The translations under genes were made by a program, and so were the position numbers. The notes under the pieces are model-generated. The model did no database searches. It was given only the letters and a program-made list of their open reading frames with translations, and was not told the origin of the DNA. DNA of 64,000 nt from an uncultured Clostridia bacterium (GTDB lineage: Bacteria; Bacillota; Clostridia; Oscillospirales; Ruminococcaceae): contig CANQKY010000001.1 in assembly GCA_947624575.1 (NCBI GenBank), forward strand, positions 68,964 through 132,963, written 5' to 3'. Positions 3,234 to 17,815 of this stretch are shown here, in pieces (positions within the stretch are counted from its first letter, which is position 1; each line of letters starts with the position of its first letter).

Positions 3234-5366
3234 ATGAACAAGACTTATTTGTGTCCGAAGTATCCGCAGGATTATAAACTGTTTTCCGTAGATGAAGCGG
3301 AAACGGTATTGACTTGTCCTCAGATTGCGATCTCAAAGAATAACGGCATGAAAGTATATGGCTGGTGTAATGGGGAGGAAAGTGTTACTCCGTTTTACAC
3401 TATAGGCACAGTTGGCAAATCAGAGTTGGATTGCAGTCTGTACCGTGTATATATTCATCTGGATATTCCTTTGCTTCAAGTCCATCCGCGTATTAAGAAG
3501 GCAGAATTACAGTTGATGCAGCATGATGCTGTGCATGTCAAAAATGAGCAGCCCAGACTACAGCTGCATCAGGTGAAAAATGGGATCATTGATTCCGGGC
3601 ATTTGCAGGATTTTGAAAAAATGGATCTTGATGAGCCAACCGATGGTGTTTGTTATATATTTAATATAACCGGATTGCTGAATACTGCTGCCAGAACCGG
3701 CACCACAACATTGGATTTGGTAGTGATGATCAGTGATGAGCGGATAAGCTGCGGTAATTATGTGATTCTTTATGGAGATTCATATTCGCTGCAGGCTCCT
3801 ACCTTATACATTACTTATGAAATGAGTTGCGGTGAAGATGAACCTTATCTTCCTGTGCCAAATGTGTTGGAACAGGTGTATAGCGATTACGTGGACTTGC
3901 ATGCCGGTAATACCATGTTTCGAATTGATGATTTTATATTTGAAAACAGATATACGCCGATCTTGTTTCAGCATTTTTATAATGCGGCTCTATATGACCG
4001 TCCGTATACCGCAAACAGGGATTTCAACCTGCAAACAGCCGATTTCAGCTCGATCAGATTGGGTCTTGGCTGGAGATTGAGCTTGATGCAAAGTATGGTG
4101 CAGTCAACTTTTCTGTACGACGGCATGATGCAAACGGGCTATGTTTATATCGACGCAACCGGAAAAGAGCACTTTTTTAGAAAAAGCTTGCAACCCCAAA
4201 TAGGCTTGGTTGTAAGAGAAAACCAGGATTTATATGAGGACATAAGCAATTCTCATTTCATTTATGATTCTTGCCGGAGAGAACTCAGTGTCTGTGGTTG
4301 CCTCGTATATCAGTTTGATGATCATGGTCGGCTAATCAATGTAAAAGATCATGGAGAAAATTATGTGCAGATTAGATATGATGCCGATAGGATATCCTCT
4401 GTTGTCGACAATACCGATGAAACCTTCTCTTTTGCATACGATGAAAACGGCTATTTGATGTCAATTCGTAGTTCCCATGGATGGTATGCACGGTATTCCT
4501 ATCATGATGATAGGCTGGTCGCCGTCACTTACTCTGACGGAAGATGGCTTGAGATTGATTATAAGAACGGAAAACCGTCTGAGATTTTGCAGACGATTGG
4601 TACACGCAGGCGTCGGGTCGTATATGAGTATACGGACACAGGATTACATAAAGTGTCCGAATATGGCATCGGCAAAGAAGGTTGTGTTTTATTACAGGAA
4701 ACGGTGTATACCTTTGAGCATCTGTCCCAGTCTGCATCTGCCAAAACTAAGTGGTTCGGAATGACGGAGAATGGGCTTGGGAACTGCGATCAAACAGTTG
4801 TTTATACTTTTGATAGCAGCGGCAGGCAGCTATGTCAATATATTATCGGTAGTGAAGATGATCAAGACGACCTGCAAGCGGACACAGATGATGCAAATCT
4901 GCTGCAAAACGGAAGGCTGAATCGGGATCTTTCGTTCTGGCATCAGGACGGTGCTCTATCGGACTCGGATTTTAACGGATATGTTTTTGAGAACAGCTTG
5001 GACGGCAGGCGCGTGGCATATCAAGATGTGTTTGTTGATGCAAATGTATCTTCAGGCTGCACATTTACATTATCCGGATGGGCAAAGGGGCATGGTTTAG
5101 TCGACCGTGTTCGCAAAAATGAAAAAGAACCGCTGTATCAACTCCGTGCCGAAATTTTCTATCATGATAACGAGGACAAGCCCTCTGTAACTGATACTTT
5201 TATCGCAAAATTTGTGCCGAATGCAGGCGGCTGGCAAAAAGCGTCTGTAGACTTTAAAAGCAACCCGGATCGCACAATCCGCTTTATTCGGGTCTATTGC
5301 GATTTTAGTGATAATTATGGAACGGTTGCTTTTGATCATATCCGGCTTAGCTATATACAGAATTAA
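3234..5366 (+). CDS. DNRLRE-domain / RHS (YD-repeat) protein with C-terminal carbohydrate-binding-like region
   Basis: N-terminal TVLTCPQIAISKN...DCSLYRVYIHLDIP; YD-like repeats (YDADRISSVVDNTDETFSFAYDENGYLMSI); beta-rich C-terminus. No obvious signal peptide. Confidence 0.65.
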   Translation: MNKTYLCPKYPQDYKLFSVDEAETVLTCPQIAISKNNGMKVYGWCNGEESVTPFYTIGTVGKSELDCSLYRVYIHLDIPLLQVHPRIKKAELQLMQHDAVHVKNEQPRLQLHQVKNGIIDSGHLQDFEKMDLDEPTDGVCYIFNITGLLNTAARTGTTTLDLVVMISDERISCGNYVILYGDSYSLQAPTLYITYEMSCGEDEPYLPVPNVLEQVYSDYVDLHAGNTMFRIDDFIFENRYTPILFQHFYNAALYDRPYTANRDFNLQTADFSSIRLGLGWRLSLMQSMVQSTFLYDGMMQTGYVYIDATGKEHFFRKSLQPQIGLVVRENQDLYEDISNSHFIYDSCRRELSVCGCLVYQFDDHGRLINVKDHGENYVQIRYDADRISSVVDNTDETFSFAYDENGYLMSIRSSHGWYARYSYHDDRLVAVTYSDGRWLEIDYKNGKPSEILQTIGTRRRRVVYEYTDTGLHKVSEYGIGKEGCVLLQETVYTFEHLSQSASAKTKWFGMTENGLGNCDQTVVYTFDSSGRQLCQYIIGSEDDQDDLQADTDDANLLQNGRLNRDLSFWHQDGALSDSDFNGYVFENSLDGRRVAYQDVFVDANVSSGCTFTLSGWAKGHGLVDRVRKNEKEPLYQLRAEIFYHDNEDKPSVTDTFIAKFVPNAGGWQKASVDFKSNPDRTIRFIRVYCDFSDNYGTVAFDHIRLSYIQN

Positions 5367-5558: not shown

Positions 5559-7367
5559 ATGAAAGATATCAGAGAATATCTTTTAGAAGCTTTTTCCAAA
5601 TATTCATCAAATAATGTGATTTGCACCTCTAAAAAAGAGATTTCCTATTCTGAACTCTATCAATATGTATGTTCATTTGCGATATCGGTAAAAAACAGGT
5701 GTGAAAATAATACTAATGGGCAATATTTTGCATTATACATACATTCCCCTGAGAAAGAAATAATTGCACAACTAGCCATACTTTTACTTGGTGGAGTATG
5801 TGTCCCCTTGGATAAGTCAGTCCCGTTAAATTATTATGATCTTAAACGATTTTCTGAAATAGAGTATATTATTACAGACGACGATGAAATCAACCATTTG
5901 TGTAATTTAATGGTGATTAATATGAATAAAGTTGAAATTGATCTAGTGCAAAGCAATGATTTACATTTCAAAATGTCGGCAATAGCTGACAAAGTTGTAT
6001 ATTGCATTATGACATCTGGGACAACTGGAAAGCCCAAGGCAGTGTTACTAAAACAAGATGCGGTTATTAATCAAGTTAAAGCTAAAATACTTGTGCTTAG
6101 TATGAATGAGAAGAGCCGGCTTTGCTTGTCGACAAATTTATCGTTTGTCACTTCAATTTGGCAAATTTTAGCTACGGTTTTTGTGGGAGGATGCATTGTC
6201 GTCCTGAATGAGGCCGAACGAATTAACCCATTAGAAATGTTTAATAGAGCGGACAATTTAGGATCTACAATTATATGTACTGTCCCTTCTGTAATGAGCG
6301 TTTTTTTATCCACTGATACGCATAAAAGAAAAAATCAATTTGACAATATATCAACACTTGTATTAACAGGAGAACCACTGCCGTCAAGATTAGCTCAGAG
6401 CATTATAAATGCGTATAAAGTACGAGTTATTAATGCATATGGTCAAACTGAATGTACGGATGATACATTTCATTTTGTTTTGGAAGACAATTTTGATTTC
6501 AACAAACACCTTTTTGTTCCTATTGGCTATCCAGTATCGAATATTGATTACGTTATTGTGAATAGTGAGGGAGTTGCCGAAACTGATATTCTAACTGGTG
6601 AATTGTGCATTACAGGAACGTGCTTATCTCTAGGATATTTAGATGACGATGAAATGACAAACAAAAAATTTAAGACGATAAACGGAGATGACGATAGAAC
6701 ATTCTATTTCACAGGCGATCTTGTATCGCAACTTGATAACGGCATGCTAGTCTGTCATGGTAGAGTAGATAATCAAATCAAAATTAATGGTTGTCGTATA
6801 GAACCCGAAGCCATTGAAGCGCATTGTATGAATTATTCTGGAGTTGAGGATGCGTTGGCGATAAGGGTAAAAAATCTGAATAGTGAATACATACATTTGA
6901 TTTATAAAGAAAATGATGATGAGCCGGTTGATACTCTCGATTTAAGGAATTATCTCACTCAAAATCTTCCTTCATATATGATCCCTGCGATAATTACGAA
7001 AACGAAAAGCATACAATACGGCAGTAATGGAAAAAAGATTCGAAAAATCGAAGAATTATTGCAACGGAAAAAGGAGGACAGGAGTAGTATTTCAGCATTG
7101 GAAAGCAAAGAAATCTCCAAAGATGTTCTATATGGTTTGGTGCACACAGTTTTTAGAGATGTAATTCGAAGAGAGCTAAATATGAATTTGCCCTTGGATA
7201 TGCGATTGGATTCTTTGGTAAATTCACTTGAGTTTGTATATTTAGTGGTTGAACTGGAACAGATTTTAGGAATTGAGTTTGATTTAGACAAGTTCGCTGT
7301 AAGTGCATTCTCGACATTAAATGATTTTTTGGAATATGTTTTGGCTGAGAATAAAAGGACTGATTGA
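5559..7367 (+). CDS. AMP-binding adenylation enzyme with C-terminal carrier (phosphopantetheine) domain
   Basis: A-domain cores [58 protein letters not shown]-terminal [20 protein letters not shown] fits a carrier-protein helix II. Confidence 0.88.
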
Positions 7368-7711
7368 TTATGATTGAGATGTTAAAATCAAAAATACATA
7401 GAGCAACAGTGACAGACTCAAATTTAAATTATGAGGGTTCAATTACTATTGCAAAAGAATTAATTGATGCTGCAAAACTTTTTGAGTTTCAAAAGGTGAG
7501 TGTTGTAGATATTAATAATGGGAACAGATTTGAGACATATGTTATCTCTACAGATGATGAGGGTAAAATATGTGTAAATGGCGCTGCTGCTCGGCTTGTA
7601 AGTAAAGGTGATCTTGTTATAATTATGGCGTATATGCTTATAGATGAAGACACGGAGACAATGCATATCCCAACAATTGTAAAAGTTGATGGCAACAACT
7701 TGATTATTTAA
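7364..7711 (+). CDS. Aspartate 1-decarboxylase (PanD)-like, pyruvoyl type
   Basis: SKIHRA, NYEGS (Gly-Ser self-cleavage site), [23 protein letters not shown] match PanD landmark residues. Confidence 0.9.
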
Positions 7712-7733: not shown

Positions 7734-7773
7734 TTGTGTATGGAAAGAACTGATTGTGTATGGAAAGAACTGA
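7734..7773 (+). repeat. Exact 20-bp tandem duplication (TTGTGTATGGAAAGAACTGA x2) spanning the carrier-protein start codon
   Basis: 7734-7753 and 7754-7773 identical; read directly. Confidence 0.97.
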
Positions 7774-8014
7774 TATTGTAAATGCATTTCGTACAGCCAT
7801 TATATCTAACGAAAACTTGAGCAGATCTTTATTTTCCAAAGGAGAAATTCCAGAGAATATAAGTGATTTAGTTCTGTCAATATCCTCATTGGATTTTGCA
7901 GATTTGCTGATAAATGTTGAAGAGGTACTTGGCGTTGAATTTGCTGAGGGGTGCATGACAGCAACTAACATTAGTATAGGTGAACTTATTGAAAGGATAG
8001 AAAAAATTGTATAA
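7760..8014 (+). CDS. Stand-alone acyl/peptidyl carrier protein
   Basis: ISSLDFADLLINVEEVLGVEF fits the Ppant-Ser helix; ATG at 7760 used (the track start at 7754 is TTG). Confidence 0.82.
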   Translation: MERTDIVNAFRTAIISNENLSRSLFSKGEIPENISDLVLSISSLDFADLLINVEEVLGVEFAEGCMTATNISIGELIERIEKIV

Positions 8015-9413
8015 TATCACACACATTTTTGATGTTGATGGGGGGAAATACGCTCTTGATTTCCGTAATATATTCTTTTGTCAGTTAGATAAAAAAACGG
8101 AGAGCGAATTAAATGGCTACTTGACGGTCGATGGTCAAATAAGCGATGATTATGCTTTTGGAACTGCGCTGGATGCAGCGGTGAGACATGGCTTCTTTAT
8201 ATCGAATCATCCCGATGAACCAATACCATTGTTTGACTATGATACATTAAATATATCTTTTGCACCGGTGCATGATTGTAATTTTTCATGTGCCTACTGC
8301 TACGCAGAAGGCGGTAAAGGTACAGCCAGCTACCAAAGAAGCTTTGATAAAGATATGATTGATGCTATGCTGAACTATATTTATGTTACTAAATATAGTA
8401 ATTATCAGAAGTACAAGTTTGATTTTGTGAGCGGTGGTGAACCTTTATTAAACCTTGATATTTTGGAGTATTTTTTGAAACAGGTGCGCATTTTTGATTG
8501 GAAGTATAATAAAAAAACAGCAATTCTAATTGTTACAAATGGTTCTTTATTGACATCTGAAATCATAAAAAAACTTGATAAATATGATGTTTATTTAGGA
8601 ATAAGCATTGACGGACGACGACATATCCATAATCTTCATAGGGTGTACAAAAATGGTATAGGAACATATGACGATGTCGTAGCCGCGATAACCAATCTTC
8701 GTGCCTCCAGTGCCTCCTTCAAATTGAAAGATGCATGGGCGATGTCGGTTATTACTCCTAAAACTGGCAATCTAGTTGATCTAATGGAACATTGTATGGA
8801 ATTAGGCTTCAAACGTATGCAAATGCAGTTATTGCGTGTTCCTAACAATCACCATTTGAGATTTCACGATTTAACAAGTTTAAAAAACAAATATAAGGAA
8901 TTGTTTGCATATATACTATTATGTGCGGAAAAGGGCAATTTAGATCCTTTGAAAATGATTGCTAATGATAATGATTCGTTCGGGAAATTTATTGCAAGAT
9001 TAATTTTAAGAAAAAAAGTGTGTTATCGCTGTTTTGCCGGAAAAAACAAAATTGCGATAACAGCAGATGGAATTGTGTTTCCTTGCGATAGTTTTTGTGG
9101 AGATAGCAAATTTGCTATGGATTCGATTATTAATCCGGCAGAAAATGAATCAGTAAGAGAAGAGTTTCAATGTGCGCATATACAGCATAGAGAAAAATGT
9201 TCAACCTGCTGGGCTCGCTTTTTATGTGGGGGAGATTGTTATTACAATAGTTTCGTTATCAATGGTAATATTTATGATCCAGATCCTTTTATATGTGAAA
9301 TGAATCGTTTTTTTATAGAATATGCCATTTATATGATAATGAGGCTTTATGAAGTGGATAAGAAGAATATCGATTATATGGCAAGGCTATTAAGCGTTAA
9401 TAGTTACCTATGA
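8007..9413 (+). CDS. Radical SAM/SPASM peptide maturase
   Basis: CNFSCAYC cluster motif, FDFVSGGEPLLN, C-terminal SPASM cysteines (FPCDSFCG ... CSTCWARFLCGGDC). Confidence 0.93.
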   Translation: MYNITHIFDVDGGKYALDFRNIFFCQLDKKTESELNGYLTVDGQISDDYAFGTALDAAVRHGFFISNHPDEPIPLFDYDTLNISFAPVHDCNFSCAYCYAEGGKGTASYQRSFDKDMIDAMLNYIYVTKYSNYQKYKFDFVSGGEPLLNLDILEYFLKQVRIFDWKYNKKTAILIVTNGSLLTSEIIKKLDKYDVYLGISIDGRRHIHNLHRVYKNGIGTYDDVVAAITNLRASSASFKLKDAWAMSVITPKTGNLVDLMEHCMELGFKRMQMQLLRVPNNHHLRFHDLTSLKNKYKELFAYILLCAEKGNLDPLKMIANDNDSFGKFIARLILRKKVCYRCFAGKNKIAITADGIVFPCDSFCGDSKFAMDSIINPAENESVREEFQCAHIQHREKCSTCWARFLCGGDCYYNSFVINGNIYDPDPFICEMNRFFIEYAIYMIMRLYEVDKKNIDYMARLLSVNSYL

Positions 9414-9485
9414 TTTTAGAATGAAACGTATAGTAATATGTTTCAAAATGCGTACAGAGCCGCAAAATGTAAAGGAGGTGAAAAT

Positions 9486-9779
9486 TTGGAACTGGATTAC
9501 TTGAACGATCTTTTTGAGGAGTTGAATCCGGAAGATTGTCTGGCAATCGAAGGCAGTGGTATTCCAAATACTAGTGGTACAAATGATGTAGTGACAGTTG
9601 TTGGTGGTACAATTGCTATTGTTGGTTTAGCTGTTGTCGCCGGGGCGGCAGTTTCCTTATATTGCCCTCGTTGCAATATTTGGTTTGCTGCCAAAAACAC
9701 AGGTAATGGCAATGTTTATTCTGAATATTGCCCAAATTGTAATCAGTTAGTATCAGGATATGGTTCTAGTGGTTGCTAG
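9486..9779 (+). CDS. Candidate modified-peptide precursor with double-glycine-type leader, TM segment and CPRC/CPNC pairs (97 aa, TTG start)
   Basis: SD AAAGGAGG (9471-9478), about 7 nt before TTG 9486. Leader ELDYLNDLFEELNPEDCLAIEGS/G with I-4, L-12, F-15; then a Gly/Val/Ala-rich hydrophobic stretch and CPRC-x-CPNC. Confidence 0.65.
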   Translation: MELDYLNDLFEELNPEDCLAIEGSGIPNTSGTNDVVTVVGGTIAIVGLAVVAGAAVSLYCPRCNIWFAAKNTGNGNVYSEYCPNCNQLVSGYGSSGC

Positions 9780-9815
9780 AAGTTTTATGTCCTTTACTTA
9801 AACTGTAATGGCAAT

Positions 9816-9847
9816 AAAGAGCATATTTGCTCTGTGGTATGCTCTTT
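9816..9847 (+). terminator. Hairpin after the precursor gene (weak/partial terminator or attenuator)
   Basis: AAAGAGCATA ... TATGCTCTTT, 10-bp stem, no strong U tract. Confidence 0.5.
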
Positions 9848-9919
9848 ACTGCTTAATAATTCAATATTTTATATGAGTTACTATTTAGACATGAACGATT
9901 TTCACTTGAGGGGAACAAC

Positions 9920-10591
9920 ATGAAAAAGTATCTAAAATATATCATCATGATCGTTCTGCCGGTTGCGCTCGATCAGGGGATCAAACTGGTGATCAGCCGC
10001 TTTTACGCCTTTGACAGCGACCCGTCCGAGTTTGCCGGAGGGTTTCATATTCATCCGATGATCAATTACGACACATATGTCGCATTGTCGGGGAAGGCGG
10101 CGCAATCGGGGCAGGAGATCGGCTTCTGGATCGGGGTATATGCGCTGCAGCTATGCTGCGTCATGCTGCTTGTTTTAACCTTTTATTATATGACCTGTGC
10201 TGTAAGTGCTATTGTGAAAAAGAAGAAAATGCCGGTTTTGTTTTCTGTGGGAGCCAGTCTCACGGTTGCCATCACGATTAACAGAATACTGGATCTGGTG
10301 TTGCGAAAGGGCGCGCTCGATTATCTCTGCTACTCTAAGCTTGAGCATATAGAAGAAAAAGGTCTGGTGCGGCACATGAGCAATCACATGACATTTGATT
10401 TAACTGATTTGTATGCGCTTATCACGGTTGTGCTGGTGGCGATTTATGCTTTGCGGCAGTTCTTCACCTTTATTTGGCTGAATATGCATAAAGAACAGGA
10501 AAAAGAGTTTACGCAGGAGCTTAAACGTCGCGTCAAAGCGTTTTTCAAAAAACCGATTGGCTTAATGGGAGAAAAGACAGATGAATCGTGA
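9920..10591 (+). CDS. Signal peptidase II (LspA)-like integral membrane protein
   Basis: VALDQGIKLVI, INRILDLVLRKGALDYL and FDLTDLYA echo the LspA N-x-x-D / FN-x-A-D catalytic pair; 4 TM segments. Confidence 0.65.
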   Translation: MKKYLKYIIMIVLPVALDQGIKLVISRFYAFDSDPSEFAGGFHIHPMINYDTYVALSGKAAQSGQEIGFWIGVYALQLCCVMLLVLTFYYMTCAVSAIVKKKKMPVLFSVGASLTVAITINRILDLVLRKGALDYLCYSKLEHIEEKGLVRHMSNHMTFDLTDLYALITVVLVAIYALRQFFTFIWLNMHKEQEKEFTQELKRRVKAFFKKPIGLMGEKTDES

Positions 10592-11783
10592 CAGTCTGAA
10601 ACGAATTTGGAACTCATGCAGCCGGTTTGCGGATATCTTTCTACTGCACCTTATTGTGGTGCAGGGGGTTTATTTTTCTGTTTTGTTTTTCAGGACCCGT
10701 TTTGATCTCGTCACAACGGAATTGGATTTTAACGGAAAACTTCTGCCGGTCACCTGTCTCATTCTTATGCCGCTGGTGTTTTACTCGCTGGTGCGAATGG
10801 TGGTGATCTACAGCGAACCGCTGATGGAACAGTTTTTTAAAGTGCCGGAGGAGGAGTGGAACTTCCAAAAAAAGTTTCAGTTTTTGTTCCGGCAAAAAGC
10901 CTTCTGGTTCGCAACTGCCGCTTGGGTCGCTTTGTATCTTCTTCTGCCGCTCAAATGGACTTATGCCGTACTGCTGGACACCTTCCTCAAAGGGCAGGAC
11001 AGCATAGCAGGAAAGATGTATCTTCTTGCGGTGCTGTTTCCGCTGTTCTTCCTGCTTGCGGTCGCCGCGTATTTTGCCGCATTCCGTTATTGGACCACCT
11101 ATAAAAAGGGAAAATCATCACTGCGTTATGTGGGCGAAACGATGCGAAAGGCTTATAGAAGAACACTTTTGTCGGTGATTGCCGTTTATGCCATGGCGGG
11201 ATTGATCGTATGTATGCTGTTACCGGTTTTTTTGTCTATTCTGCTGCCGATCGTCTGGACAGTGATCTGGCCGAACGGGATTATTGCGCTTGCGGTAGGC
11301 ATTGCGGTGGCGGCACTGCTCTTTCGACTGCAGGGACTTTTGAAGCGCCGGAAGTTCTTAAAGCGGTTGAAGCGAATGGAGCGGGATCATCTCTGCGAGG
11401 TGACCGGGATCAACCGCCCTTACCGTTCTGTTTTTGCACTTTATGACGGGGAGAGCTTCCGCGTAAAGCGAAACGGGAAAGAATATGCCTGCAAGCTGGT
11501 GAGCGCCCTTAGAAAAAGTCGACCGATGGTGATCCATGAAAACGGAGTCTACGAATTGATCCGCAGTAAATATATCCCATTCGGACAGCGTGGGTATGAC
11601 TTCGGATTTGATGCCGACTGCCAAAAGGTTTTGATTTTAAGCCCGACCCCAAAGCTCATTTTTGACAGCAGAATGCGCCAACTCGATAACGGGGATACCG
11701 TCGGCGGGTATAAGCTCTACACCGGCACGGCTTTTCTAAACGCCCTTGAGCGCGACTGCATCGACCACAACCTGAACCGATAG
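10581..11783 (+). CDS. Multi-pass membrane protein of unknown function, coupled to the LspA-like gene
   Basis: Several TM helices, soluble C-terminal domain, 11-nt overlap with the upstream gene. Confidence 0.6.
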   Translation: MNRDSLKRIWNSCSRFADIFLLHLIVVQGVYFSVLFFRTRFDLVTTELDFNGKLLPVTCLILMPLVFYSLVRMVVIYSEPLMEQFFKVPEEEWNFQKKFQFLFRQKAFWFATAAWVALYLLLPLKWTYAVLLDTFLKGQDSIAGKMYLLAVLFPLFFLLAVAAYFAAFRYWTTYKKGKSSLRYVGETMRKAYRRTLLSVIAVYAMAGLIVCMLLPVFLSILLPIVWTVIWPNGIIALAVGIAVAALLFRLQGLLKRRKFLKRLKRMERDHLCEVTGINRPYRSVFALYDGESFRVKRNGKEYACKLVSALRKSRPMVIHENGVYELIRSKYIPFGQRGYDFGFDADCQKVLILSPTPKLIFDSRMRQLDNGDTVGGYKLYTGTAFLNALERDCIDHNLNR

Positions 11784-11796
11784 AGAGGATAAAACT

Positions 11797-12114
11797 ATGG
11801 AGCGGTCAACAAAAACACTAAGTATATCTTGCACACCATGTCGGATTAACGAATGTTTTTATCAGGGTGATGACATGGTTGAAATGCGTAATCAAAAAGG
11901 AGTATTTCGCTTAAAAGGAATAGGTGCAGCTATATGGCAAATGTTAGATGGTAAGCACACCATCGAAATGATTATAGATGAATTGTGTAGTATGTTAAAT
12001 ATCAATGAAAAAAACAAAATATATGATAAACTGATGCACTTATTATTTCTATTAGAAGAAAAAAGTTTAGTGATTATTGATTGGGATCCGCTTTATAAAT
12101 CGCTTTATAAATAA
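11797..12114 (+). CDS. PqqD-like (RRE-type) peptide-binding protein
   Basis: VFRLKGIGAAIWQMLDGKHTIEMIIDELC is a PqqD fold signature; directly precedes a radical SAM gene. Confidence 0.78.
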   Translation: MERSTKTLSISCTPCRINECFYQGDDMVEMRNQKGVFRLKGIGAAIWQMLDGKHTIEMIIDELCSMLNINEKNKIYDKLMHLLFLLEEKSLVIIDWDPLYKSLYK

Positions 12115-13427
12115 TGGAGGATATTCAAATGGAAAAGAGGTTGGATGTGTTACTAGTATCTCCCCCATCACCAAATCCTCTAATGTTAAAATCGTTTAAA
12201 AGGCAGGGCATGCCACCTCTGGGGCTTGGATATATTGCAACATATCTTAAACAAGCAGATTATTCAGTGGCGATAATGGACATGGGATTAGAGGATAATA
12301 CTATGGATGTTTTGTTAGATACTATTAAAACACAAAAACCTAGTATTGTTGGGATATCATGTTCAACAGAAACTTATAACACCACAATTAGAATTGCAAA
12401 AATCATTAAAGAAATCAATGGGGATATTTGCATTGCATTGGGTGGTCCACATGTCTCACTACAATACAATACAATATTTGGTAAAGAAAATATTATTGAT
12501 TTTGCAATGATCAATGAAGGTGAAATAAGTTTTAAAAAACTATGTGACTATTACATTCGTAAAACACTTAATTTAGAAGATCTTAGAAGTGTGGTCTATG
12601 TAAAGAAAGGGAAAACAATTACAACTCCTCTTGAACCATTTATAGAAGATTTGGATTCATTACCATTTCCCGATCGTTCCTTGTTTGATCCTTTGGATAA
12701 ATATGCAATTCCTGCTACGATTTCTACTAGCAGAGGATGCCCAGGTAAGTGCGCATTTTGTGCAGCTGGAGTGCTTTCCGGCGGAAGATATAGAATGCGG
12801 TCGGCAAAAAATGTAGTTGATGAGTTCCAATACTTACAATCGCTGGGTTATAATCATGTAACCATCGTAGATGATACAATGACCGTAAACAAAAAGAGAT
12901 TGTATGAATTTGCGGATGAATTAATAGCTAGAAAAGTAATGATGACATGGTATTGTGAGTCAAGGATAGATGTTATTACAAGGGAAATGCTTATAAAAAT
13001 GAAAGCAGCCGGGCTTACAGAAATACAATTTGGCGTGGAATCAGGGAATCAAAATGTTTTAGATAACATAAACAAGGGCATTCTTTTAGACAAAGTATAT
13101 ACGGTTTTCAAATGGTGCAAAGAAATGCACATTCACACAATAACCAATTTGATAATCGGACAACCTTCTGATACAAAAGAAACAATTAAAGAGACTATAG
13201 CATTAGGAGAGCAACTGATTGATCTTGGCGCGCAGTTAAGTTTTACGATTTGTACGCCCTTTCCCGGAACTCCTCTTTGGGAAAAGGCGGATGAATATGG
13301 AATAGAAATAGTGGATTATGATTTAGATCATTATTCTACATATCACCCTGTGTATAATACTAGGTATTTAACAGCAAAAGAAATTCGAAATGAATTCTAT
13401 AATGCTTTTAAAATATTTGATAAGTAA
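12114..13427 (+). CDS. B12-binding-domain radical SAM enzyme
   Basis: N-terminal cobalamin-binding-like domain (PPLGLGYIATYLKQ, GGPHVS), CPGKCAFC cluster motif. Confidence 0.92.
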   Translation: MEDIQMEKRLDVLLVSPPSPNPLMLKSFKRQGMPPLGLGYIATYLKQADYSVAIMDMGLEDNTMDVLLDTIKTQKPSIVGISCSTETYNTTIRIAKIIKEINGDICIALGGPHVSLQYNTIFGKENIIDFAMINEGEISFKKLCDYYIRKTLNLEDLRSVVYVKKGKTITTPLEPFIEDLDSLPFPDRSLFDPLDKYAIPATISTSRGCPGKCAFCAAGVLSGGRYRMRSAKNVVDEFQYLQSLGYNHVTIVDDTMTVNKKRLYEFADELIARKVMMTWYCESRIDVITREMLIKMKAAGLTEIQFGVESGNQNVLDNINKGILLDKVYTVFKWCKEMHIHTITNLIIGQPSDTKETIKETIALGEQLIDLGAQLSFTICTPFPGTPLWEKADEYGIEIVDYDLDHYSTYHPVYNTRYLTAKEIRNEFYNAFKIFDK

Positions 13428-13483: not shown

Positions 13484-15550
13484 ATGGGGTTTAAAAGTAT
13501 GAAGAATGTAACTACATCGATTCCGTATAAAGTGTGTAATCAATTTCAGGTCAGCATACTTGATGATCAGGTTGTATATATTAATTGTCATGACAATTAT
13601 TATATACAAGTGCCGAAAGATGCTCATAACTGGATATTATCCAATACAAAAGATATTGAGCATCAAGATCAATATTACCCTATTTTAATTCAATTATTAG
13701 ATATGCATGTAATTGAATTAGATTTAGATAGGCTTTGTGTTGGGAAGGCATCATTTTTTGTTGAGCAGAAGGTCGGGCATCCAAGAGAACATTTTCATTT
13801 ATCAGAAATATATGTTGACAGGATCTTCACAATTCAACTGCTACATCAGTATGGGTATATAAACGGCAAAACACATATTAATTATTTGCATAATTCAAAC
13901 GAAAATATTGATGGCGATTTTTTAAAAAATGTAAGTGTCATTGTAAATTCATTTAATCAATTACACAAGTATCACAATATAATTTGCAAAAACCTGCGTT
14001 TTGAAGCAAATACGATACCAAACAAAAGAGATATTGACATACTTGTAGATATTTTGGCACATCATTCTGTTGACATCATCATTAAATATACTACACCGAC
14101 AGATGTGGCTCGTTCATTTTTCAATTTAAAAATAAAGCTCGGAAATGACAATTTAACAATATCTCATGATTACTGTTCAATGATGTCAAAATCAAAGATT
14201 CATAATAATAATTTTGTGGCTTGTCCAAATGTCTCAAATCGGAATATTAAGTGCATTAAGTTATCCTGTGGAGCTGGCAGTACTAAGTTTTTTGTTGATT
14301 CTCTAGGGGATGTCTTCCCTTGTGTTCATATGAAAACTTCTAAACCTCTTGGCAATATTAAAGATGACACCCCTCATGAATTGCTTAATAATGCCAACAC
14401 ATATCACAGAGGGATTTTTTCAAAATGTAGGTCGTGTCCGGCATTGTTCTTTTGTGGCGGCGGATGTCAGGCGGAATATGCCAAAAGCGGATATGTGTTT
14501 TGCGATAAAATAAAAAAAGTAATTGTAGATGAATTTAATGGAAGAAATAAAAAAATATGCATGGATTTAATTGAAGCACAGAAAGACTTGAGTGCGTATG
14601 AATATATGTGCGAGAGAAATGCACAAAGAATTCTGCTAATAGGGTATGGCATTAAAGAGCCATTATTTTTGATGCGTCCCGGCTTTTATATTGATAGTTG
14701 CAATTTTTCTCAGACTGGAATTTTTTCCACTTCCTTTTCGCGAGGAATTTTGGATTCTGAAGCGGTTCCGGTTTTAGGGGAGATGAGGTTTGGTCTGGAC
14801 TGGGAAACAATTAATTGGCATTTGCAAAAAGGACAAATTGTTCAGATTACTGTGGATGTGTTTTATTTGCCGTATAAATATAATACATACTTTAATAAAA
14901 GTCATGGGTCACACACTGTTTTTTTATTGAGAAAAACAGAAAAGGGATATATTGTTTTAGACTGGTATCATCCCGACTATTTTATTGGTGAACTTTCTTT
15001 AGAACAATTGACCGCTGCAAGAATGTCAGAAAATCCGAAAAATCAAATAAGTGCATTTAGTGGTTCACCTATTAATGGGGCATATCGCTTGCTAAATATG
15101 AATGGTGTTAGTAATAATGTTTGCGTTCGAGATACTGTATATAAAAACATGTATTTTTTAGTGCAATCGATGTTGGATGCGAATGGCACATTATCGCATA
15201 TTAAGAAATTGCAGACAGAAAAGCCGCAATGGTTAAATGATCCCAAACAAGTAGGGTATTCAAATGCCATAGAGTCATTTTTCTTATTAGAACTAGAGAC
15301 AAGATTTTTAATATTATATTATACAGCGATGGTGGAAGAAGATCAGTTTACTTCTTTTCACCCTGAAGGAATTGTGAAAGCTGTCGTTGAAATTCAAAAA
15401 CAGATACAGAAAATTAAGAATACATTGATTATTGCTCATCGAAGAGTAAAGGCGATAGATGAGAGAGAATGGCGTGAAATGTTAGGTGCTTTTTATAATA
15501 AATTGTATCAATATTGTGAAATGTTGATAAAATCAATGAAAAAAATGTAG
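13484..15550 (+). CDS. SPASM-domain protein lacking the CxxxCxxC motif, fused to a C-terminal BtrH_N-like (C39-like fold) domain
   Basis: SPASM-type cysteines (LSCGAG...FPCVHM...CRSCPALFFCGGGC); no CxxxCxxC anywhere; C-terminus GQIVQITVDVFYLPY...SHGSHTVFLL...IVLDWYHPDYFIGELS. Confidence 0.7.
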   Translation: MGFKSMKNVTTSIPYKVCNQFQVSILDDQVVYINCHDNYYIQVPKDAHNWILSNTKDIEHQDQYYPILIQLLDMHVIELDLDRLCVGKASFFVEQKVGHPREHFHLSEIYVDRIFTIQLLHQYGYINGKTHINYLHNSNENIDGDFLKNVSVIVNSFNQLHKYHNIICKNLRFEANTIPNKRDIDILVDILAHHSVDIIIKYTTPTDVARSFFNLKIKLGNDNLTISHDYCSMMSKSKIHNNNFVACPNVSNRNIKCIKLSCGAGSTKFFVDSLGDVFPCVHMKTSKPLGNIKDDTPHELLNNANTYHRGIFSKCRSCPALFFCGGGCQAEYAKSGYVFCDKIKKVIVDEFNGRNKKICMDLIEAQKDLSAYEYMCERNAQRILLIGYGIKEPLFLMRPGFYIDSCNFSQTGIFSTSFSRGILDSEAVPVLGEMRFGLDWETINWHLQKGQIVQITVDVFYLPYKYNTYFNKSHGSHTVFLLRKTEKGYIVLDWYHPDYFIGELSLEQLTAARMSENPKNQISAFSGSPINGAYRLLNMNGVSNNVCVRDTVYKNMYFLVQSMLDANGTLSHIKKLQTEKPQWLNDPKQVGYSNAIESFFLLELETRFLILYYTAMVEEDQFTSFHPEGIVKAVVEIQKQIQKIKNTLIIAHRRVKAIDEREWREMLGAFYNKLYQYCEMLIKSMKKM

Positions 15551-15655
15551 TTATACACCCTTTTTACATTGACCATATGTAAACCCAGAAAAAGGCTCAA
15601 GGGTTCACAATTACTGCTTTTATTTGTTTGCTCTCTTAAGGAGGTAGAAGGTTTT

Positions 15656-17815
15656 ATGTTATTTAAGCAGTATCCTTTTATCAATCAACGAGGGCATAAT
15701 GATTGTGCAATAGCATGCCTTAAAATGATAGCCGATTATTATCACATAAAGGTTCATTCAGAAAAATTGCGGGAACTAGCTGGCATCAATCAAAAAGGAA
15801 CAAGCATTTATGGGATTGTCGCTGCTGCTAAAAGTGTAGGACTTATTTCAAAAGTTGTTAAAGGAGCAGGGTCGACAAATATCTTATCATCGCTTGTCTT
15901 GCCGTGCATTGCACTAGTTCATGTAGATAATTCCGCGCATTATATTGTAATATATAAAGTGAAAAAGAATAATACTGTAGTTATCGCAGATCCTTTGAAG
16001 GGGGTATTGCGGTTTAAAGTAAGTAGTCGAGGCGATGCAATTCATACTATTAATAATGAATATACATTTTCAGGAATTTATATTTTGTTTTCTCCTAATA
16101 CAGCCAATCACGGCGATAATTCAAATACCACAATTATAAGACAGTTTGCAAGTATATTAAAACCATATAAAAAAATAATCACATCGAATTTGGCACTATT
16201 CTTTTTACATATAATAATTGAAATTGTTGCTACTTTTTTTGTTTGCTTATTTTTATCTATGCAAACCGACTCGTTTGATTTAAAACTAATGATGATGGTA
16301 ATTATGATCATTTTGCTATATCATATTTTATACGCAAAGTTACGAGCACATATAAAAACCAAAATAAGTTATAGAATAAGTACACATATGGGCTTGAATT
16401 ATCATAGCCATATTATGGCGTTACCTATGAGTTTTTTTGATTCGCGAAATGTGGCTGAAATATATTCCCGTTTTGATAATATATCTAATATTTCTCTTGC
16501 AATTGCGGAAGTCGTTTTGACAGTACTTATAGATTTCACACTTATTTTATTAGGACTTTTCTTGGTATTTATGAAAAGCGGTCCTTTATTCATTATACTA
16601 TGTATAAGTTGCTGCATCAGATTTTTGGTATTCTGGCATGCGGATTGTCATTTTTCTTTATACCGGAATAGTTATAAGGGAATATCAATTGAAAATAGAA
16701 TTTGGCAATCTATTAAACACATATTAAAGATAAAAAGCAATACTATCAGCCATACTGTGACATTACAGTTAAAAAATGATATTGAAAACTATTTTTATAA
16801 TAATATTATATATAAAATATCATCGCAGCTGCAAAGAAAAGCTCATACGATAATAACAATTGTTCTTTTGGTAATGGAATGCGGAGCGTTCTACTATATG
16901 TTAAAGGCTGGTATTATAAATATTCAGCTATTATATTTTTCTCTGGCTTTTTATCTTTTTTTTGCGGAATCTATAATGAATCTTGATTATATTAGAGATA
17001 AAATCATATGTGTTTGCGATCCATATAATGAGATGAAAGAAGTTATAGACTTGGCATCAGAAGAAAATCCAGACAAGTTGGTTTTGTCAAAAGCAATATC
17101 TTGCCTCGAAGCAAAAGATGTTTCCTTTCAATATGGTAATGGGGGAAAAGTATTAGAAGACCTTTCATTTAGTGTAAAGGCGGGAGAAACTATTGCTTTT
17201 GTAGGAGAGTTTGGAGCAGGTAAATCAACAATTGCAAAATTAATCATGAAGCTATATGAGCCGACACACGGTAATATATTGGTAGATAATGTTCCTTTAG
17301 TAGATGTTGAGACAGCGTCACTGAGAGAGCATATAGTTTATATTTCTCAAGAATTATACTTTTTTAATTGTACAATCATCGAATATCTAACCTTTGGAAT
17401 TACTCATGTGAAATTTGATGATATTATTACAGCAACAAGGATTGCAGGATGCTTTAACTCTATAAATGCGTTGCCTTTGGGATTTCAAACTAAGTTAACA
17501 GAATTTGGAGATAATTTTTCTTATACACATCGTCAATTGTTGGCCTTGGCAAGGGCAATATTGAAAAAGGCGGATATATATTTATTTGATGAAGTCGTAA
17601 GCACTTTAAATATTTCAATAGCAAAAAAATATTTATGTAATCAGAATTATCATCCAATATTTATTTTTATGACGCAAAAGCTTGAAGTTATAAAAGAAAG
17701 CGATAAAGTCTTTGTGTTAAAAGAAGGGAAGATTATAGAAACAGGTACACATGAAGAACTGGAAAAAAGTAAAGGCCATTATGCGAAACTTATAAACAAT
17801 GGTTTTATATTTTAA
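15656..17815 (+). CDS. Peptidase C39-containing ABC exporter (PCAT) with non-canonical ATPase motifs
   Basis: QRGHNDCAIACLKMIADYYH and SAHYIVIYKV...ADP (C39 triad); Walker A GEFGAGKST; signature reads FSYTHRQ; SD AAGGAGG before ATG 15656. Confidence 0.9.
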   Translation: MLFKQYPFINQRGHNDCAIACLKMIADYYHIKVHSEKLRELAGINQKGTSIYGIVAAAKSVGLISKVVKGAGSTNILSSLVLPCIALVHVDNSAHYIVIYKVKKNNTVVIADPLKGVLRFKVSSRGDAIHTINNEYTFSGIYILFSPNTANHGDNSNTTIIRQFASILKPYKKIITSNLALFFLHIIIEIVATFFVCLFLSMQTDSFDLKLMMMVIMIILLYHILYAKLRAHIKTKISYRISTHMGLNYHSHIMALPMSFFDSRNVAEIYSRFDNISNISLAIAEVVLTVLIDFTLILLGLFLVFMKSGPLFIILCISCCIRFLVFWHADCHFSLYRNSYKGISIENRIWQSIKHILKIKSNTISHTVTLQLKNDIENYFYNNIIYKISSQLQRKAHTIITIVLLVMECGAFYYMLKAGIINIQLLYFSLAFYLFFAESIMNLDYIRDKIICVCDPYNEMKEVIDLASEENPDKLVLSKAISCLEAKDVSFQYGNGGKVLEDLSFSVKAGETIAFVGEFGAGKSTIAKLIMKLYEPTHGNILVDNVPLVDVETASLREHIVYISQELYFFNCTIIEYLTFGITHVKFDDIITATRIAGCFNSINALPLGFQTKLTEFGDNFSYTHRQLLALARAILKKADIYLFDEVVSTLNISIAKKYLCNQNYHPIFIFMTQKLEVIKESDKVFVLKEGKIIETGTHEELEKSKGHYAKLINNGFIF

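Follow-up and report, generated by a model that had tools for sequence, protein, structure and literature searches.

To our knowledge, beta-alanine is not normally added to peptides made by the ribosome. It is the carrier-bound unit on which closthioamide is built, in a pathway whose peptidyl transferase is predicted to be CtaG (PMC6772006); CcbD likewise passes a carrier-bound amino acid to an amine, forming an amide by way of a Cys thioester (PMC12945683).

We analysed a 64,000-nucleotide stretch of clostridial DNA (the window), in which a first-pass annotation had proposed a peptide precursor with a double-glycine-type leader, radical SAM and C39 partners, and CPxC cysteines as possible zinc ligands or radical SAM crosslink sites. 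The precursor, its leader and its partners held up, and a central role of the CPxC cysteines in modification was not supported; overlooked were an adenylation (A) domain, the aspartate decarboxylase PanD, an acyl carrier protein (ACP), CtaG/BtrH-like genes, a PqqD protein and a B12-binding radical SAM enzyme. To judge from their sequences, these neighbours could between them produce beta-alanine, activate it and pass it on, and we lean, by a little, towards a radical SAM RiPP with a thiotemplated beta-alanine arm resembling that of closthioamide. Literature searches for this gene combination found no described system that has it.

Sister clusters

With the radical SAM protein as query, two sister clusters (L002 and L003, ~55% identical) were found in genome contigs. 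Both come from MAGs titled Oscillospiraceae, and their isolate names suggest an origin in termite guts. They carry, in the same order, PqqD, B12-binding radical SAM, A-domain with carrier, PanD, ACP, radical SAM/SPASM and two BtrH-like genes; L002 also has the C39 exporter, and the L003 contig stops before that point. Upstream of PqqD lie small ORFs whose leaders align with the window leader (MENIELNYLNDLLVELDENEQFEVDGG before and AHFMVFTVLMAEPPPTGC after the cleavage site, and MELNYLNDILVELEEDDQLKLDGG before and GFWAFAALMLNPPPESGTLGC after it). These three close clusters are the only ones known: ~1,990 sampled genomes gave no further close relative of the radical SAM protein and only four more distant ones, and a plasmid tblastn search and viral-contig scans gave no relatives.

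The precursor and its leader

9486..9557, + strand: leader MELDYLNDLFEELNPEDCLAIEGS, GG-type (GS), from homology with the L002/L003 leaders and a profile search of its own genome
9558..9779, + strand: core, with hydrophobic stretch, CPRC, CPNC and C-terminal -SSGC, stop codon included (ORF; GC common to L002 and L003)
9810..9853, + strand: hairpin 3' of the precursor stop codon, without a T-run (z -3.8)

The precursor ORF spans 9438-9779 (+), and TTG 9486 is its better start, as had been proposed: a strong Shine-Dalgarno sequence, AAAGGAGG (9471-9478), lies 7 bases upstream, and homology with the L002 and L003 precursors begins at this codon in the alignment. The product (TTG 9486-9779) has 97 residues, in which MELDYLNDLFEELNPEDCLAIEGS is followed by GIPNTSG...SLYCPRC...YCPNC...SGYGSSGC. 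Counting S24 as -1, positions -4, -12 and -15 are I21, L13 and F10, all hydrophobic, so that the leader register originally given is correct; the leader combines these residues with a cleavage pair of the GG/GA/GS kind, GS here versus GG in both sister precursors. A leader profile built from the L002 and L003 precursors alone, with the window sequence left out, gave a single match in the 2.4 Mb genome, the window leader itself (E 6e-4). Nine leader positions are invariant in the three precursors and as a pattern match once in the window and in none of 20 Markov-shuffled windows, a test that is merely illustrative because the positions were picked with the window sequence included. Leader conservation beside variable cores is the pattern of RiPPs with a double-glycine leader and C39 export. 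The homology and the independent profile match bear out a precursor with a GG-type leader, and we are confident that 9486-9779 is a real one.

The core is a different matter. Sister cores have 18-21 residues, lack the transmembrane/CPxC region and clearly have only the C-terminal -GC in common with the window core; their one Cys is the last residue. The CPxC pair, found in the window precursor alone, is therefore not a conserved modification site, and radical SAM crosslinking or zinc binding there could still occur in the window peptide by itself. No close relative of the window core turned up in 398 family genomes, and three weak matches (E 6e-4 to 3e-3) span chiefly its hydrophobic part. Small ORFs ending in Cys also lie near radical SAM genes at four more distant loci (L009, L010, L011 and L014) but give weak support, since they were chosen by eye, partly for that Cys.

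A CPxC pair behind a hydrophobic stretch, with weak, sub-threshold zinc-ribbon matches, might instead indicate a small membrane zinc-ribbon protein or an unmodified class II-type bacteriocin. The leader is, however, homologous to those of precursors without CPxC, and the radical SAM partners are conserved, which makes this reading very improbable. The absence of the leader or of the radical SAM/C39 partners from homologs had been put forward as the sign of such a protein; the sister loci have a homologous leader and the same partners. A zinc-ribbon membrane protein was rejected, there being no zinc-ribbon family match above cut-off.

The hairpin downstream of the precursor may be an attenuator. 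L002 and L010 have hairpins at the same position after the precursor stop (z -5.2 and z -8.5, respectively); that of L003 is weak, and L011 has none.

Maturation and export genes

8007..9413, + strand: radical SAM/SPASM maturase, CNFSCAYC (profile match; sister loci)
11797..12114, + strand: PqqD-like peptide-binding protein (E 1e-7)
12114..13427, + strand: B12-binding radical SAM enzyme, CPGKCAFC (domain match and motif)
15569..17815, + strand: C39 peptidase/ABC exporter (profile matches; triad)
17860..19641, + strand: second ABC transporter half (profile match)

The precursor gene directly follows the radical SAM/SPASM gene, as first described, and two higher-GC genes (9920-11783) come between it and the cluster's second half. 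The maturase is nearest by profile to PapB/SCIFF-type enzymes and far under every family cut-off: it scores 173.5 bits against the PapB model (cut-off 340), short of a ranthipeptide maturase, and 95.8 bits against the CcpM/CLI_3235 model (cut-off 500), short of that family also. The precursors match no NCBIfam family above cut-off, the CcpM/CLI_3235 precursor included. The C39 exporter expected downstream is indeed there, with an intact Cys-His-Asp triad as C39 export demands; its ORF opens at 15569, the first possible start, rather than at 15656 as earlier annotated. Its ABC signature is degenerate (FSYTHRQ in place of LSGGQ). The exporter and the adjoining ABC half could form a heterodimer.

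A putative beta-alanine supply

5559..7367, + strand: adenylation domain with C-terminal carrier domain, pocket code VTWTVTADDK (profile matches; pocket alignment)
7364..7711, + strand: aspartate 1-decarboxylase PanD (Pfam E 1e-44; the genome's only copy)
7754..8014, + strand: stand-alone acyl/peptidyl carrier protein, Ser45 (assigned via homologs)

PanD keeps its YEGS processing site and the SKIHR lysine. Since it is single-copy and neither PanB nor PanC was detected in the genome (assembly 98.7% complete), pantothenate synthesis by this route is unlikely as its role and was rejected.

Asp235 of NRPS A-domains holds the alpha-amine. At this position the three PanD clusters have Val, the code being VTWTVTADDK (window) or VAWVVTADDK (L002, L003), whereas two related A-domains encoded in clusters that lack PanD (L009 and L011; DILMMGM..K) retain Asp; for these the code suggests Gly as a possible substrate. 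Thus, loss of Asp235 goes with PanD. The window code also presumably resembles that of the beta-alanine domain of BlmIV; literature searches found no paper confirming a beta-alanine A-domain code.

No family matches the stand-alone carrier directly; it is recognised through its homologs, which score as carriers and in which the Ser is invariant. NCBIfam TIGR04069, "peptide maturation system acyl carrier-related protein", matches the ACPs of distant relatives weakly. The genome has one gene of the phosphopantetheinyl-transferase superfamily.

Transferase candidates

13484..15550, + strand: BtrH/CtaG-like acyltransferase candidate, C376-H477-D493, with an inserted SPASM-type stretch (homolog alignment; fold match)
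19732..20667, + strand: second BtrH/CtaG-like protein, without a conserved catalytic Cys (alignment; fold match)

C376, H477 and D493 are common to the first protein and its homologs, and its His and Asp are 16 positions apart, as are the H128 and D144 named in CtaG PDB titles. Pfam BtrH_N falls under cut-off for the window proteins and over it for a distant homolog (39.3 vs 29.7 bits). In fold searches with AlphaFold models CtaG was the best match for both BtrH-like families (E 1e-6 and 1e-4), with AziU3 next and CcbD further down; the models are low in confidence (pLDDT 46-52, with TM-scores of just 0.2-0.35), so these matches serve as support only. The insertion in 13484-15550 (~230 residues, with a SPASM domain) is missing from L002 and L003, and by eye it contains no CxxxCxxC.

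One cluster or two neighbours

The C-terminal Cys, present in 3/3 leader-defined precursors compared with 3% of 1,408 small ORFs, fits, together with the PapB/SCIFF-type affinity of the maturase, an ordinary radical SAM RiPP with a Cys thioether or similar crosslink, perhaps C-terminal, beside which the A-domain, PanD and ACP would serve a separate small molecule. We consider this rather unlikely: A-domain, PanD, ACP and radical SAM genes stand in one unbroken order in the window, L002 and L003, and distant radical SAM relatives too adjoin an ACP (L010, L011 and L014) or an A-domain (L009 and L011).

GC content is 28-36% in the cluster, 46-47% in 9920-11783 and 42-49% beyond 21 kb to ~32 kb. 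The contrast of the cluster with 9920-11783 and the flank suggests that the cluster was acquired, with later rearrangement or insertion. The two genes of 9920-11783, which split the low-GC cluster in two and seem foreign, encode a signal peptidase II-like protein and a seemingly membrane-bound 400-aa ORF with no Pfam match. Also near the cluster are an integrase-core (rve) transposase-like gene (820-1662), a protein with a borderline RHS-repeat match (3234-5366) and a PcfJ-like gene (22136-24295); a TraB-like gene lies ahead of both sister clusters (L002:46-1011, by Pfam match; L003:495-1511, by sequence resemblance).

Proposed pathway

The pathway that we propose is built on what the sequences show: the set of genes present, the homology of the leaders, catalytic motifs that are intact and the lack of PanB and PanC matches. 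PanD would convert aspartate to beta-alanine, which the A-domain, if its substrate is as we infer, would adenylate and load onto a carrier domain. The PqqD protein would, by analogy with its family, bind the leader while the radical SAM/SPASM and B12-binding enzymes modify the peptide by reactions presumed from their classes. The CtaG/BtrH-like Cys-His-Asp enzyme may then join the beta-alanyl group on the carrier to the peptide, and the C39 exporter would cleave after GS and export the product. That this papain-fold transferase joins beta-alanine to the radical SAM-modified peptide, possibly at the C-terminal Gly-Cys, we put forward tentatively, at slightly under even chances. Neither sister core has a lysine, which weighs against the proposal; the acceptor might then be the C-terminal Cys or a hydroxyl, or the coupling a transpeptidation at Gly-Cys, all of them guesses.

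Conservation of only the leader and the C-terminal GC also recalls the pearlins, which modify the C-terminal Cys of a carrier peptide and use a B12-binding radical SAM enzyme in one pathway (PMC9303977). On that model the encoded Cys would undergo modification and coupling to beta-alanine before being cleaved from the carrier to give a small molecule. A GG-type leader and a C39 exporter instead suit export of the peptide itself, and a peptide-aminoacyl-tRNA ligase was not noticed among the annotated cluster genes; we regard the model as improbable.

If the exported beta-alanyl peptide is indeed the product, ribosomal peptides can gain a beta-amino acid from thiotemplate enzymes beside radical SAM chemistry. 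Peptides bearing beta-amino acids could then be made by a genetically encoded pathway, and CtaG/BtrH-type enzymes would have a new function. The compact size of the cluster makes a test by co-expression practicable.

Comparison with known systems

The cluster resembles that of closthioamide (Ruminiclostridium cellulolyticum) in its aspartate decarboxylase, presumed carrier-bound beta-alanine and CtaG-type transferase (PMC6772006); decarboxylase, carrier and CtaG-like transferase occur together here, the CtaG likeness coming from low-confidence models. Closthioamide differs in being non-ribosomal, with an ATP-grasp enzyme, CtaD, predicted to load beta-alanine, and a leader peptide, radical SAM enzyme and C39 exporter are not described there (PMC6772006). 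Neither its ATP-grasp loader nor its thioamide synthetase CtaC was recognised among the annotated genes of the window cluster.

The carrier-dependent acyltransferases of the CcbD, AziU3 and BtrH type share the Cys-His-acid papain-like motif and, in low-confidence models, the fold, but their known acceptors are small molecules (a thiooctose for CcbD), not ribosomal peptides. Pearlins (3-thiaglutamate, 3-thiahomoleucine) are alike in the C-terminal Cys on a peptide and the B12-binding radical SAM enzyme; in the window cluster, unlike there, the Cys is encoded, a GG-type leader and C39 exporter are present, and a tRNA-dependent ligase was not noticed.

Radical SAM/SPASM RiPPs (PapB ranthipeptides, SCIFF, CcpM clostridial Cys-rich peptides) have in common with the window a leader peptide and a SPASM maturase, although the window enzyme lies far below their cut-offs and the precursors are without an NCBIfam match above cut-off. 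We know of no role for an A-domain or PanD in PapB/SCIFF/CcpM-type systems, and the proposed thiotemplate arm is what sets this cluster apart among radical SAM RiPPs.
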